Assembly (NCBI GenBank): GCA_017694835.1
Contig: JADIMJ010000047.1
Span: 1 to 64,000 of the forward strand
Origin: Candidatus Cryptobacteroides gallistercoris
GTDB lineage: Bacteria; Bacteroidota; Bacteroidia; Bacteroidales; UBA932
Reading direction: 5' to 3'
DNA length: 64,000 nt
Shown one piece after another: positions 269-64,000 of this stretch; position 1 is the stretch's first letter; each line of letters begins with the position of its first letter. Below the pieces are notes generated by a model. That model was not told the DNA's origin and did no database searches. It saw only the letters and a list, made by a program, of their open reading frames with translations. A program made the translations under genes and the position numbers.

Positions 269-421
269 GAGCGGAGGTGCGATGGAATGCGGGAGCGTAT
301 CCCGCGGGCCGGGCATCCTCCGCGCAGGACACATAATCCCGGAATGGGAAAAGACGCCGGGAAATAAGGTCAGACATTCGACTGCGGAATTCCGCGGGAT
401 TCTCTCTCATTGTGATATACT

Positions 422-531
422 GCGGCGGCTAGAGCCGCGGGGACCCACCTCTACCCATACCGAACAGAGAAGTTAAGCCCGCGCGCGCCGATGGTACTGC
501 CCCACCAGGTGGGAGAGTAGGTCGCTGCCGC
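422..531 (+). rRNA. rrf: 5S ribosomal RNA
   Basis: 'GGGGACCCACCTCTACCCATACCGAACAGAGAAGTTAAGCCC...GGGAGAGTAGGTCGCTGCCGC' is the conserved 5S core; ends are approximate. Confidence 0.95.
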
Positions 532-555
532 TTTTAAATGGCCAGGAATGGCCGG

Positions 556-595
556 GAGTCCCGGAGATGACGGAAGTCGTCCCCGGGACTCTTTC
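556..595 (+). terminator. Intrinsic terminator of the rRNA operon
   Basis: GAGTCCCGG ... CCGGGACTC stem followed by TTTC, just after the 5S gene. Confidence 0.7.
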
Positions 596-680
596 GTTAA
601 GTGAGAGGCTGAGGCGTGGCATCCTCATCCGCGGAGGCGGTACATTTCCAGTTCCCCAGAGGCGGCACCGTCAGAATGAA

Positions 681-724
681 CCGCGGCCGTTGGAGGACAT
701 TTTATATATCCACCGGCCGCGCCT
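681..724. repeat. REP-like palindromic repeat copy A
   Basis: GCGGCCGTTGG-AGGACATTTTATATAT-CCACCGGCCGCGCC; near-perfect inverted repeat sharing its arms and an AT-rich centre with copies B, C and D. Confidence 0.75.
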
Positions 725-797
725 AAAGAAATGCCTCGCCTCAGCTATTACGGAATGCTCTGCCTCGGCACCAGGAAATGCCCCGCCTCCGCCGGAA

Positions 798-2135
798 CTA
801 TTCCAGACCGAATGCCTTTTTGATGACATCGACGGAATCCAGGAGTTCCCATCCGAAGAACTGGACATTCTCGAGGGTCTTCTTGCCGTGGATGTTCATC
901 TCGACATTGGCGCGGTATGGCTTGCGGCCGACATGGCCGTAGGCTGCGGTAGGCTCGTAGATCGGTTTCTTGAGCTGGAATTTCTCAATGATCTTGGCCG
1001 GGCGAAGGTCAAAGAGCCCGCCGATTTTTTCTGCAATCATTGCATCGGTAAAGCGCTGGCCGTCCTTGCCATGTCCGGCGGTGCCGTATGTGTTGACATA
1101 GATGCTCAGGGGACGGGCGACGCCGATTGCGTATGAGAGCTGCACGAGCATTTCCCTTGCGACTCCGGCGGCGACCATGTTCTTGGCAATGTACCTGGCT
1201 GCGTACGCGGCTGACCTGTCAACCTTGGATGGGTCCTTGCCTGAGAATGCCCCGCCTCCGTGGGCGCCTTTGCCGCCGTATGTGTCCACTATTATCTTCC
1301 TTCCGGTGAGACCGGTGTCTCCATGGGGGCCGCCGATGACAAATTTCCCGGTAGGGTTGACATGGAGGATGTAGTCTCCCTTGAACAGGGCGGCAGTCTC
1401 GGCCGGAAGTTGCTCAATCATCATCGGGAGAAGTATTTCCTGTACATCTTTTTTGATTTTTGCCTGCATGGCGGCATCTACTTTCTTAGCTCCGTATTGT
1501 GCCACGGCTTCGCTGTAAGTCATTTTCCCGAGCTCTTCAGGAACGAATTCGTCGTGCTGGGTAGAAATCACGATAGTATGGATTCTGACGGGGCTGTTGT
1601 CAGTGTCGTCGTATTCTACGGTGAACTGAGACTTGGAGTCCGGCCTGAGGTAAGGCATCAGTTCGGGCGACTTCTTGCGGATTTCGGCAAGAGTCCGCAG
1701 GGCAAGATGCGACAGTGCAAGCGGCAGAGGCATATACTCATCCGTATCGCAGCATGCATAGCCGAACATCATTCCCTGGTCTCCGGCCCCCTGCTCGTCA
1801 GGGTCGGAAACGACCACGCCTCTGTTGATGTCCTGGCTCTGTTCATGCAGGGCAGACAGCACGCCGCATGAGTTTGCGTCAAACATGTAGTCGGCCTTGT
1901 TGTATCCGATGCGGCTGATTGTCTTCCTTGCTGTGGTCTGGATGTCGACATATGCATCCTCGGACCTGACTTCGCCTCCGACGACGACGAGGCCCGTGCT
2001 GCAGAATGTCTCGCAGGCTACCTTTGCCTCAGGGTCCTGCCTGAGGAATTCATCGAGGATGGCATCGGAAATCTGGTCCGCGACCTTGTCCGGATGTCCC
2101 TCTGACACTGATTCTGATGTAAAAAGATACCTCAT
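798..2135 (-). CDS. metK: S-adenosylmethionine synthetase
   Basis: N-term [52 protein letters not shown] and [27 protein letters not shown] motifs. Confidence 0.98.
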
Positions 2136-13065: not shown

Positions 13066-13100
13066 AACTGACCCCGGGAATTTTTCCGGGGCAGGACACA

Positions 13101-13142
13101 ATACAAAGACAGCCCGACAAAACAATCGGGCTGTCTTTGTAT
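13101..13142. terminator. Bidirectional intrinsic terminator
   Basis: Perfect 17-bp stem ATACAAAGACAGCCCGA / TCGGGCTGTCTTTGTAT with loop CAAAACAA between convergent genes. Confidence 0.9.
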
Positions 13143-13175
13143 TTTTCCGACTCTTTGGCTCCGCCTGCCGCGATT

Positions 13176-19116: not shown

Positions 19117-19120
19117 ATGG

Positions 19121-19188
19121 TTCCTGTCCTGTTTGGGTTTCTGACCTTTCCAGGTTTCTGTCCTGTTTGGGTTTCTGACCTTTCCAGG
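19121..19188. repeat. Two 34-bp tandem repeats adjacent to the sulfatase start
   Basis: TTCCTGTCCTGTTTGGGTTTCTGACCTTTCCAGG / TTTCTGTCCTGTTTGGGTTTCTGACCTTTCCAGG, one mismatch. Confidence 0.95.
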
Positions 19189-21082: not shown

Positions 21083-21121
21083 CAAAGACATTTTGGCGCG
21101 GAGGCTGTTCATTTCTTGAGG

Positions 21122-21164
21122 CACGGCCGGTGGATATGTGAAATGGCCTCCCACCGGCCGCGCC
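21122..21164. repeat. REP-like palindromic repeat copy B
   Basis: CACGGCCGGTGGATATGTGAAATGGCCTCCCACCGGCCGCGCC; arms CGGCCGGTGG/CCACCGGCCG. Confidence 0.8.
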
Positions 21165-59984: not shown

Positions 59985-60032
59985 AGGGGCGACTCATAAT
60001 GGTGCTTACGGCCGTTTTGAGTCGCCCCCTTA
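59985..60032. terminator. Convergent intrinsic terminator
   Basis: GGGGCGACTCA ... TGAGTCGCCCC 11-bp stem between convergent genes. Confidence 0.8.
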
Positions 60033-60716
60033 TACAATAGTCATGCTTTCGTCCGAGAAGCTGTAGAAACGGTCGTCGCACAGAATAATGTGGTCGACCA
60101 GCGATATCCCGAAAGTCGACAGGGCCCTCTTCAGCTGTCCTGTGGTATTGATGTCCGTAGTGCCGGGCATCGGATTCCCCGAGGGGTGGTTATGCGTAAG
60201 GATGACTCCGCTTGCCAGCTTGTCGAGTGCATTCCTGACAATCATTTTGATGTCCACGATTGTCGCATCAAGCCCTCCCTTGCTCATCCTCTCCCTGCCG
60301 ATGACATAATTGGCACGGTTGAGGTACAGCACCCAGCATTCCTCATGCGGCAGTCCCCTGATTTCCTTCAGCATCATCCGGTATATCATTTCGGGACTTG
60401 TGATGGATGTCTTCTCCGTGTTCTCAACCTCGCAGCAGAATCTTTTTCCCAGCTCCAGTGCGGCGGCTATGGTGATGGCCTTGCTCTGTCCTATCCCGCC
60501 GATGCTCCGCATCCTGTCCGTCGACATCTGCGCAAGGGCGGACAGCCTGCCCCCTGACAACTTGAGGAGCATCTGCGCCGTCTCCACGGCATTATGGCCC
60601 CCGCTTCCCGTCCTCAGCAATATCGCCAGCAGCTCCGCATTGCTCAGGGCCTCCGCCCCTTTTGCCGCCATCTTTTCCCTCGGCCTGTCTTCCGGGCATA
60701 ATTCAAGCATCTTCAT
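60030..60716 (-). CDS. radC: RadC family JAB-domain protein
   Basis: RPREKMAAKGAEALSNAELLAILLRTG; ILTHNHPSGNPMPGTTDINTTGQLKRA. Confidence 0.95.
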   Translation of the reverse strand: MKMLELCPEDRPREKMAAKGAEALSNAELLAILLRTGSGGHNAVETAQMLLKLSGGRLSALAQMSTDRMRSIGGIGQSKAITIAAALELGKRFCCEVENTEKTSITSPEMIYRMMLKEIRGLPHEECWVLYLNRANYVIGRERMSKGGLDATIVDIKMIVRNALDKLASGVILTHNHPSGNPMPGTTDINTTGQLKRALSTFGISLVDHIILCDDRFYSFSDESMTIV

Positions 60717-60790: not shown

Positions 60791-60890
60791 TTATTCTGAA
60801 AACAGGCCTCGTATCCCTCCGTGCATGGCAATTTTCTGTTTTTGAATGAAAGTTTTTCTGAATTTTGAAGTTTTATGGATTTGGATTGAA

Positions 60891-60931
60891 ATCGCGCCCG
60901 GTGGGAGGTATAAATGGCCTCCACCGGGCGC
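60891..60931. repeat. REP-like palindromic repeat copy C
   Basis: ATCGCGCCCGGTGGGAGGTATAAATGGCCTCCACCGGGCGC; identical to copy D over at least 41 bp. Confidence 0.95.
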
Positions 60932-60936
60932 ACCTG

Positions 60937-61752
60937 TCATATTATCTTCAGTTCCTTTGCAATCCTGCAGGCCTCGATGGAATTCTTTACCTGCAGCTTG
61001 GCCAGGATTTCCTGCCTGTGCCGGCTGACAGTATTCTTGCTGATGCACAGAGCTTCGGCGATGCTTTTGCTCGTGAGCCCTCTGTCAATGAGGTTCAGGA
61101 CCTGCTTCTCTCTTGCTGACAATATTTTTGAAGCATTCTGTTGCGTCAGGTCTCTGGTCTGGCCGTTGACGGAATTGATTATCATGCATTTCGACGGGAA
61201 GTCAAATATCAGCGGACTATAAAGGCACAGGGCAAGCCAAAGTTTGTCTTCATGTTGGCCATGCATCCTTGTATCGGCGCGGTCCGCAAAATCTGGATTG
61301 GCGTCAGCGGCTGCCGGCGCTGAAATATAGAACATCCGGTGAAATGCTTCTATGTAGTCGCCGGACGGGGCTTTCATCCTCAGTTTGCTCGCGAGACAGT
61401 AGTCATTGCGGTTTTTCTTGGGCTGGCGTCTGATGAAATGAAAAAAGCAAAGTTCCTGCAGGTGTTTTTCGGCCAGGTCGTCCGGATGAATGAGACTGAA
61501 GATTTCCTCTTCCCAGATTGACGGCACCAGGATGTTGCCTCCGCCGCTTCCGCATGCGAGCATTCTTGAAAATCCACCGTAATATATATGGCTTGTCCTT
61601 GTCCTCAGGTCGCTCAGCACGGCAATGGCGTTTTCCATCACGGCGTAGCTGCATGCAAGGTCCTTATATTTGACGAGCATTTCCTGATACGGTTGTCCGT
61701 CGTCAAAGGCCTGGGCGGCGAATTCCTTGTCAAGTATGTCTCTTGAGTCCAT
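60937..61752 (-). CDS. LuxR-family transcriptional regulator with C-terminal HTH
   Basis: ILSAREKQVLNLIDRGLTSKSIAEALCISKNTVSRHRQEILAKLQVKNSIEACR. Confidence 0.93.
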   Translation of the reverse strand: MDSRDILDKEFAAQAFDDGQPYQEMLVKYKDLACSYAVMENAIAVLSDLRTRTSHIYYGGFSRMLACGSGGGNILVPSIWEEEIFSLIHPDDLAEKHLQELCFFHFIRRQPKKNRNDYCLASKLRMKAPSGDYIEAFHRMFYISAPAAADANPDFADRADTRMHGQHEDKLWLALCLYSPLIFDFPSKCMIINSVNGQTRDLTQQNASKILSAREKQVLNLIDRGLTSKSIAEALCISKNTVSRHRQEILAKLQVKNSIEACRIAKELKII

Positions 61753-61777
61753 CGCTGAAAATGGTTATTTATAATCA

Positions 61778-61817
61778 TTGTGCGGTTAATGACAACATTT
61801 TACCTTTGCAAAGGTAA
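61778..61817. promoter_or_regulatory. Promoter with 18-bp palindrome containing opposed -7 boxes
   Basis: TTG-N20-TACCTTTG; TTACCTTTGCAAAGGTAA (61800-61817) is a perfect palindrome. Confidence 0.75.
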
Positions 61818-61825
61818 CCAAAAAT

Positions 61826-61913
61826 TATGGTTATATGAGAAGTGTAGTTATATATGGGTATGAAAACTATGGTTATATGGGTATGGAAATTTAGTTGTAT
61901 GAGTATGAAAAAG
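61826..61913. repeat. Three 23-bp tandem repeats plus a shortened first copy, running into the DUF1349 start codon
   Basis: TATGGTTATATGAGAAGTG / TAGTTATATATGGGTATGAAAAC / TATGGTTATATGGGTATGGAAAT / TTAGTTGTATGAGTATGAAAAAG. Confidence 0.85.
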
Positions 61914-62558
61914 TTATTGTCAAGTGTATTGCTGGCATCTGTGTCGTTTGCCGGCATGGCGCAGTCATTGGACAGAATGCAGTGGTTCAACGAGCCGGAG
62001 CAATGGGAAATCAACGGAAACACTCTGATGATGGATGTTACTCCGCAGACGGATTACTGGAGGATATCCCATTATGGATTTACCGTGGACGACGCTCCGT
62101 TCCTGTATACCTTGCGCGGCGGCGAATTTGAGGTTAAAGTCAGGATATCAGGCGATTACAGGACAAGGTTTGACCAGTCGGGCCTCATGCTGCGCATTGA
62201 CCATGAGAATTACATCAAGGCCGGGATTGAGTTCGTGGACGGGAAATACAATCTCAGCACCGTGGTGACGCATCATACAAGTGACTGGAGCATCATTCCT
62301 CTGGACGAGCCTGTGGAATATGTCTGGATAAAGGCCGTGCGCAGGCTGGATGCTGTAGAGATTTTCTATTCTTTTGATGACAAGGAATATACGATGATGC
62401 GCAATGCCTGGCTTCAGGACAACTGTCCTGTGATGGTCGGAATGATGGCGGCCTGCCCTGACGGCTCCGGCTTTACGGCCATGTTTGAGGATTTCTCAAT
62501 CAGGCATTTGCCGGACCTGCGCCGCCTGCAGTGGCTGGAGAAGAATGGCGGGAACTGA
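61905..62558 (+). CDS. DUF1349-like secreted protein (concanavalin-like fold)
   Basis: Signal peptide MKKLLSSVLLASVSFAGMAQ; DYWRISHYGFTVDDAPFLYT..FEVKVRISGDYRTRFDQSGLMLRIDHENYIKAGIEFVDGKYNLSTVVTHHTSDWSI. Confidence 0.85.
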   Translation: MKKLLSSVLLASVSFAGMAQSLDRMQWFNEPEQWEINGNTLMMDVTPQTDYWRISHYGFTVDDAPFLYTLRGGEFEVKVRISGDYRTRFDQSGLMLRIDHENYIKAGIEFVDGKYNLSTVVTHHTSDWSIIPLDEPVEYVWIKAVRRLDAVEIFYSFDDKEYTMMRNAWLQDNCPVMVGMMAACPDGSGFTAMFEDFSIRHLPDLRRLQWLEKNGGN

Positions 62559-62567
62559 CGGCTGAAA

Positions 62568-62608
62568 ATCGCGCCCGGTGGGAGGTATAAATGGCCTCCA
62601 CCGGGCGC
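62568..62608. repeat. REP-like palindromic repeat copy D
   Basis: ATCGCGCCCGGTGGGAGGTATAAATGGCCTCCACCGGGCGC, identical to copy C. Confidence 0.95.
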
Positions 62609-62665
62609 GATATTAAATGTCCCGCCTCCGCAAGAAAGGAATCTTCCTCCTCCGCGGCAGGTCTA

Positions 62666-64000
62666 TTATTTTACAAATGCGATGATTTCGCCTTTGGCTA
62701 CCATGTCGCCCTGCTTTGAGCAGATGGCCACGATGCGGCCGTCGACGGCAGGAATGACTTCCTCCATGCCGTAGTAGGTCTGGATGTAGCTCATTGCCTG
62801 GCCGGCCTTTACTTCTGTGCCGACAACAGGGGCGGTGGAGGCGTCGTCCACATCCACCTGCCAGATGAGCTGGCCTTTGACAGGAGCCTGGACAGGAGTG
62901 GCTTCAGGATACTTTTCGGCGATTTTCTCCACATCGTATTTCGGCATTTCCACTACCGGACGGGTGATGACAATCGGGGCGCCGGCCTTTTCCTTGGCGG
63001 CCTCAAGGTCTTTCTTGAAGCGCTCCTTGGCCACGCCGCTCTTGTAGTCGCGGTACTGCCTCTCGTGCATTGCGAATTCAAAGAGCTCCTCGTCGTCCTC
63101 GCCGAAGTCCCAGCCCTCGTCCTTCATCATCTGGCGGTACTTGTCGAGCTCGTTCGGGAATGCATCCTGAGGGTTGCCTGTGTAGAACTCGAGTCCTTTC
63201 TTCTTGGCAATCTCCACGATTTCAGGAGCAAGTTCCCCGGGGAGTTTGCCCATCTTGCCGAGAATCATGTTCCATGTATCCTTGTCGATGGTGGTCCATC
63301 TCGGCTGGCCCTTGAGGATGTTCATGAGGTTCATGAGCGCAGTGTTCTTCACATACTGGCTGAACGGAGTGACAAGCGGCGGATATCCGAGGCGAGGCCA
63401 TACATACTCGACTTCCTGGAACAGCATCACCATGAGGTTGTCAAGGGTGAGTTCCTGCTTGCCCTGGGCGCGGAGTGATGCATTGATTGCCCCGTGGAAG
63501 CCCTTGAGGTCTGCCATCATGGAGCCCATCATTCCGCCAGGGAGGCCGCAGCCCACAAGGAGGGAGCTCATGTGAGAGTTGTTGGGGTCAATCCAGTAGC
63601 CGAGGAATTCGTCTATGAATTTCTGGGTGAGGCGGCGCACTTCCATGTATGCGTCCATGTTGAGGTCCTTCACAAGGAAGCCGTCTGCCTTCATCATCTC
63701 GCGGATGGTGATTACGTCAGGATGTACCTTTCCCCATGAGAGCGGCTCGACGGCCACGTCAAGATAGTCGGCTCCGGCCCTTGCCACCTCAAGCATAGAG
63801 GCAGGGGAGAATCCCGGGCCGCAGTGGCCGTGGTACTGTATCTTTATGTGAGGGTATTTCTTCTTGATTGAGCGGGTGAGCTCACCGAGCATTGTCGGGC
63901 GTCCGATTCCTGCCATGTCCTTGAGGCAGATTTCATCGCAGCCGTATTCGACCACCTTGTCAACGATGCCCATATAATACTCCACGGTGTGGATGGGGGA
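62666..64000 (-). CDS. Biotin-dependent carboxyltransferase (pyruvate carboxylase B / oxaloacetate decarboxylase alpha type), 5' end beyond window
   Basis: CDEICLKDMAGIGRPTMLGELTRSIKKKYPHIKIQYHGHCGPG; HMSSLLVGCGLPGGMMGSMMADL; C-terminal biotinyl-like domain. The M at 63985 is probably internal. Confidence 0.9.
   Translation of the reverse strand, partial: SPIHTVEYYMGIVDKVVEYGCDEICLKDMAGIGRPTMLGELTRSIKKKYPHIKIQYHGHCGPGFSPASMLEVARAGADYLDVAVEPLSWGKVHPDVITIREMMKADGFLVKDLNMDAYMEVRRLTQKFIDEFLGYWIDPNNSHMSSLLVGCGLPGGMMGSMMADLKGFHGAINASLRAQGKQELTLDNLMVMLFQEVEYVWPRLGYPPLVTPFSQYVKNTALMNLMNILKGQPRWTTIDKDTWNMILGKMGKLPGELAPEIVEIAKKKGLEFYTGNPQDAFPNELDKYRQMMKDEGWDFGEDDEELFEFAMHERQYRDYKSGVAKERFKKDLEAAKEKAGAPIVITRPVVEMPKYDVEKIAEKYPEATPVQAPVKGQLIWQVDVDDASTAPVVGTEVKAGQAMSYIQTYYGMEEVIPAVDGRIVAICSKQGDMVAKGEIIAFVK

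Follow-up and report, generated by a model that had tools for sequence, protein, structure and literature searches.

Why should two divergent genes be bracketed by the same palindrome in the same orientation? The window, a 64,000-nt stretch of Candidatus Cryptobacteroides gallistercoris DNA, belongs to a 2.02-Mb MAG (here G000; 89% complete, 130 contigs). It encodes a 271-aa LuxR-type regulator with a GerE HTH domain (luxR; 60937–61752, minus strand; GerE E = 1e-16) and a 234-aa DUF1349 protein (61854–62558, plus strand, start codon uncertain; PF07081 E = 1e-64) whose N-terminal stretch resembles a signal peptide. The left neighbor of this pair is radC (60030–60716, minus strand) and the right neighbor is a carboxylase gene (PYC_OADA, here called oadA; 62666–63985, minus strand). 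One hairpin, copy C (60889–60931, plus strand), begins 5 nt past the luxR stop codon, and a second, copy D (62566–62611, plus strand), begins 9 nt past the DUF1349 stop codon at 62558. An earlier note on this DNA described identical direct palindromes around the two genes, and we confirm this: the first 43 nt of copy D (62566–62608) match copy C (60889–60931) at 43 of 43 positions, and the two lie in direct orientation, as their asymmetric loop, GGGAGGTATAAATGGCC, shows. Both fold strongly as DNA (−18 kcal/mol for C and −22 kcal/mol for D; z-scores from −5.4 to −8.6), and none of the shuffled sequences was equally stable.

Very stable hairpins that start 5–9 nt past stop codons would fit matched terminators or mRNA 3′-end protectors serving luxR and DUF1349, with selection or gene conversion keeping the two copies identical, and the earlier note had offered a matched pair of terminators as one possibility. 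As intrinsic terminators, however, the pair does not hold up: a T-tract is absent at both hairpins, and a terminator scan made no call at either. Rfam models matched only rRNA and one SAM-II riboswitch in the window (RF01726; 2438–2496, minus strand), with no match at C or D. The same repeat also stands between radC and oadA in a sister genome, G254, without the genes whose transcripts it would serve. We therefore consider this reading very improbable as the explanation of the locus, and a terminator or protector role could be a side effect. A terminator-like sequence does occur elsewhere in the window, as a perfect 18-bp palindrome at 13100–13143 (AATACAAAGACAGCCCGA...TCGGGCTGTCTTTGTATT).

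Copies C and D are not private to the luxR/DUF1349 unit. Two further solo hairpins of the same family lie in the window, copy A between metK and the 5S rRNA gene (682–721, minus strand) and copy B (21120–21164, plus strand), and the core pattern CGGTGG-N15-17-CCACCG occurs 28 times in G000, 28 times in G254 and 32 times in a second sister genome, G291. With a stricter form of the pattern, the reversed control gave no match in G000 and 0–1 across all reversed controls; a wider query with the element and its associated transposase gave 68 matches in the window MAG. Of the first 250 genomes of the genus scanned, five contain the stricter pattern, and, judged by sequence, only G000, G068 and G127 among these five look like true members. 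Family copies have the form CGCGSCCGGTGGA-loop-TCCACCGGSCGCG, with S varying jointly on both arms in many copies. A separate short tandem array with a 34-nt unit of two 17-nt halves, GGTTTCTGTCCTGTTTGGGTTTCTGACCTTTCCA, lies at 19119–19186.

Many copies are organized into a complete element of ~146 bp comprising three successive hairpins, P1, P2 and P3. P1 and P3 have unlike loops and face opposite ways, with the short palindrome P2 as the middle hairpin. In an alignment of elements, 92% of positions pair in register, compared with 34–48% when the arms are slid by 1–3 columns. Seven of 38 pairs are changed on both sides, and the covariation measures were reached by 18–46 of 500 shuffles; given this modest covariation, the case for the hairpins rests on strict complementarity, folding energy and repetition. 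By loop type, C and D fall into the P3 class, and they are solo copies to which the dispersed three-hairpin element has collapsed. The earlier note's cassette, if taken to mean a unit delimited by flanking sites of its own, thus loses its footing, since the palindromes belong to a dispersed family of the REP/REPIN type.

This assignment draws on dispersed multi-copy palindromes and an inverted hairpin pair repeated as a unit, and on a RAYT-like Y1 transposase gene that lies inside or beside the same hairpin arrays in the sister genomes. In G291, two complete elements of like orientation enclose a 289-aa open reading frame, and G254 encodes a protein ~90% identical to it beside several copies of the element. 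The G291 protein scores 30.6 bits against the Pfam Y1_Tnp model (cut-off 23), and its translation contains the HUH motif SNHLH and the tyrosine motif AYVLRNP, as expected of a Y1/HUH enzyme with a catalytic tyrosine. REP_Tyr_transpos is its sole NCBIfam match, at 34 bits and below the cut-off of 80, and a PDB sequence search gave no credible relative. The repeats are REP/REPIN-type elements without the canonical foot: by eye, no GTAG or GTGG foot precedes the stem in the flanks of aligned copies, and GTGG occurs only within the stem. RAYT-like genes are present in 334 of 400 genus genomes; several inspected loci (L192, L200, L201 and L202) have other hairpins, repeated locally, at their flanks and others have none, and a second RAYT gene of G291 (L192 600–1433, G291:C23) comes after repeated CAGGTGGG hairpins that belong to a different family. 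For the family studied here, the RAYT-like enzyme is the probable mobilizer.

Is the pairing of C and D itself meaningful? With 28–60 copies in 2 Mb, simple arithmetic predicts ~0.6–3 neighboring pairs within 1.7 kb by chance, so the closeness of C and D alone is unremarkable; that two REPs should fall within 2 kb of each other a few times per genome also counts against the reading we prefer below. Two REPs could have inserted or persisted independently beside the pair, making the bracketing mechanistically meaningless, and REPs in other bacteria are known to lie <20 bp from gene 3′ ends (PMC3733652). What is remarkable instead is the loop common to C and D, which no other strict copy in the window genome has, together with the presence or absence of the pair in relatives. 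The single P3 of G254 shares this loop, and filled and empty sites differ in what lies between the repeats; G254 already weakens the case for independent arrival, which is, in our judgment, decidedly unlikely.

We compared the radC–oadA site across relatives, reading junctions from draft assemblies with one genome per species. In G254 (99% complete), radC and oadA are separated by one complete element, with no luxR or DUF1349 gene between them, and the whole genome gave no match to either gene at the sensitivity of our search. In G291 the site is filled, in the order radC, half hairpin, luxR, DUF1349, complete element, oadA. In five more distantly related genomes (G050, G016, G037, G038 and G036) radC adjoins oadA, with neither the pair nor the palindrome. 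At the window site, both bracketing elements are reduced to single hairpins: copy D equals the G291 element after loss of everything between its two AAAATCGCGCCCGGTGG arms, one in P1 and one in P3, which fuses the left arm of P1 to P3. The P3 hairpin of G254 is identical to C and D at 43 of 43 positions, indicating that both copies descend from a repeat resident between radC and oadA. As a check, the earlier note had suggested looking in relatives for precise presence or absence of the 1.7-kb segment with one repeat left behind, and it had raised the possibility of a mobilized or recombining unit; the empty site of G254 and the filled site of G291 answer the check positively and support such a unit.

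A sister species has the repeat at the same spot and lacks the genes, so it seems that genes can enter or leave between repeat copies. We think it likely that genes were gained or lost at this REPIN through recombination between direct copies, against a history of a decayed resident element. In this model, the common ancestor of this small group of species most likely had a complete P1-P2-P3 copy between radC and oadA, and luxR/DUF1349, as a horizontally spreading two-gene module, would have come to be bracketed by two direct copies of the resident element. Recombination between these copies, RecA-dependent or by slippage, would give rise to filled and empty states, and later deletions between the arms of P1 and P3, which are nearly identical, would have reduced each copy to a single hairpin. 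RAYT would spread the repeat, and recombination between copies would have moved the genes. The difference between filled and empty sites is the DNA between two direct copies, as expected from such recombination. One point counts against it: recombination with a circle that carries another family member would be expected to bring a different loop, whereas the identity of C, D and the G254 P3 demands duplication in place, gene conversion, or else excision in the G254 line.

The pair itself is an ordinary, conserved and horizontally moving module of Bacteroidota. The two genes are divergent neighbors at 75 of 80 Bacteroidota loci, and in the Cryptobacteroides loci compared they mostly have other neighbors, with no flanking repeats found around them. 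Roughly one in ten of the 400 genus genomes has a match (48 at E ≤ 0.001, some of them through neighboring sequence or repeats only). In a luxR tree, families are mixed, and starred branches force Cryptobacteroides into at least two separate places, with the window and G291 apart from the main genus clade; this pattern points to horizontal movement. Comparison of the window with G291 gives a low dN/dS for each gene (0.007/0.174 and 0.025/0.125), and both are under purifying selection. Horizontal spread and purifying selection together favor, without proving, acquisition at the repeat over loss in G254; the distances among the three sister genomes are much alike (93.4, 92.9 and 90.9%, over differing sets of loci) and by themselves favor neither gain in the G000/G291 line nor loss in G254.

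These distributions also bear on cassette systems. A gene with a downstream hairpin, directly repeated, is reminiscent of an integron-like gene cassette with one recombination site per gene, but we saw no attC core motif by eye, the hairpins are dispersed through the genome, and elsewhere the pair occurs without them, making this reading barely credible. On our best reading, the locus is neither a site-specific cassette system nor a pair of intrinsic terminators.

Transposase-driven movement of the genes deserves closer consideration. IS200/IS605 elements end on either side in hairpins of like orientation and have a Y1 transposase, which moves the segment between the two hairpins. A RAYT might likewise move the whole REP–pair–REP segment as single-stranded DNA; more generally, RAYTs might mobilize ordinary chromosomal genes between direct REP hairpins, with REPs serving as portable ends for single-stranded gene transposition. 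The direct orientation of C and D fits this idea, as do RAYT genes that are themselves bracketed, in G291 by direct copies of the element and in G348 by identical hairpins (L201 1417–1446 and 2553–2582, direct hairpins of another family). Candidate cargoes would be luxR/DUF1349, RAYT itself at metK–5S, and a DUF4143/AAA_14 ATPase gene in G068 that lies between two near-identical direct family hairpins (L110 3541–4892, G068:C20). Against it, ordinary recombination yields the same end states, and we found no report of a RAYT carrying host genes in the RAYT literature examined. Unlike IS200/IS605 elements, the segment here carries no transposase, and no target rule is established. Searches of the MAG that contains the window, at 89% completeness and 130 contigs, found no Y1 transposase or RAYT, and this also counts against the recombination model. 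We regard both the specific and the general form of RAYT-driven gene movement as unlikely, and retain recombination between direct copies as the preferred explanation.

REPINs and BIMEs mobilized by RAYTs (Bertels and Rainey, 2011, PMC3116915; Nunvar, 2010, PMC2817692) share with the present family dispersed, family-specific intergenic hairpins, inverted outer hairpins with a spacer, a RAYT gene nested in the same repeats and decay to single hairpins. Here, in contrast, the unit has three ~38-nt hairpins in place of two short REPs and lacks a GTAG foot, copies number in the tens instead of the hundreds, and host genes lie between them. Atypical hairpins are on record for Bacteroidetes RAYTs in TnpAREP subclass 2.6 (PMC6006769), which by its description resembles our protein in host phylum, HUH motif (NHLH) and unusual flanking hairpins with copies elsewhere, but differs in length (~290–320 aa here, 179 tabulated) and tyrosine motif (YVLRNP versus YIH[QN]NP). 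REP sequences are also insertion targets for IS elements (PMC1525189); other DNA lies at REPs in both settings, insertion sequences in that case and a gene pair with a repeat copy on each side in this one. The usual view of REPs and REPINs is that they are passive or self-serving, and the filled and empty sites of sister species show host genes appearing or disappearing between direct REP copies. They offer a testable system for RAYT versus general recombination as the driver, within a three-hairpin REPIN-type family of Cryptobacteroides, where most genomes examined carry RAYT-like genes and at least some of these genes have a hairpin family of their own at their flanks.

The metK–5S region is a second case of presence and absence at the repeat. 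In the window (405–1375), metK and the 5S rRNA gene are separated by hairpin A, and in G291 the order is metK, element, RAYT, element, 5S rRNA; G127 has one complete element beside sequence resembling the same 5S-side sequence. At the ATPase locus of G068, the neighbors, named by eye, are an open reading frame resembling an M16 peptidase and a clpB-like one; relatives matched this locus almost only in clpB, so the comparison reached little beyond that gene.
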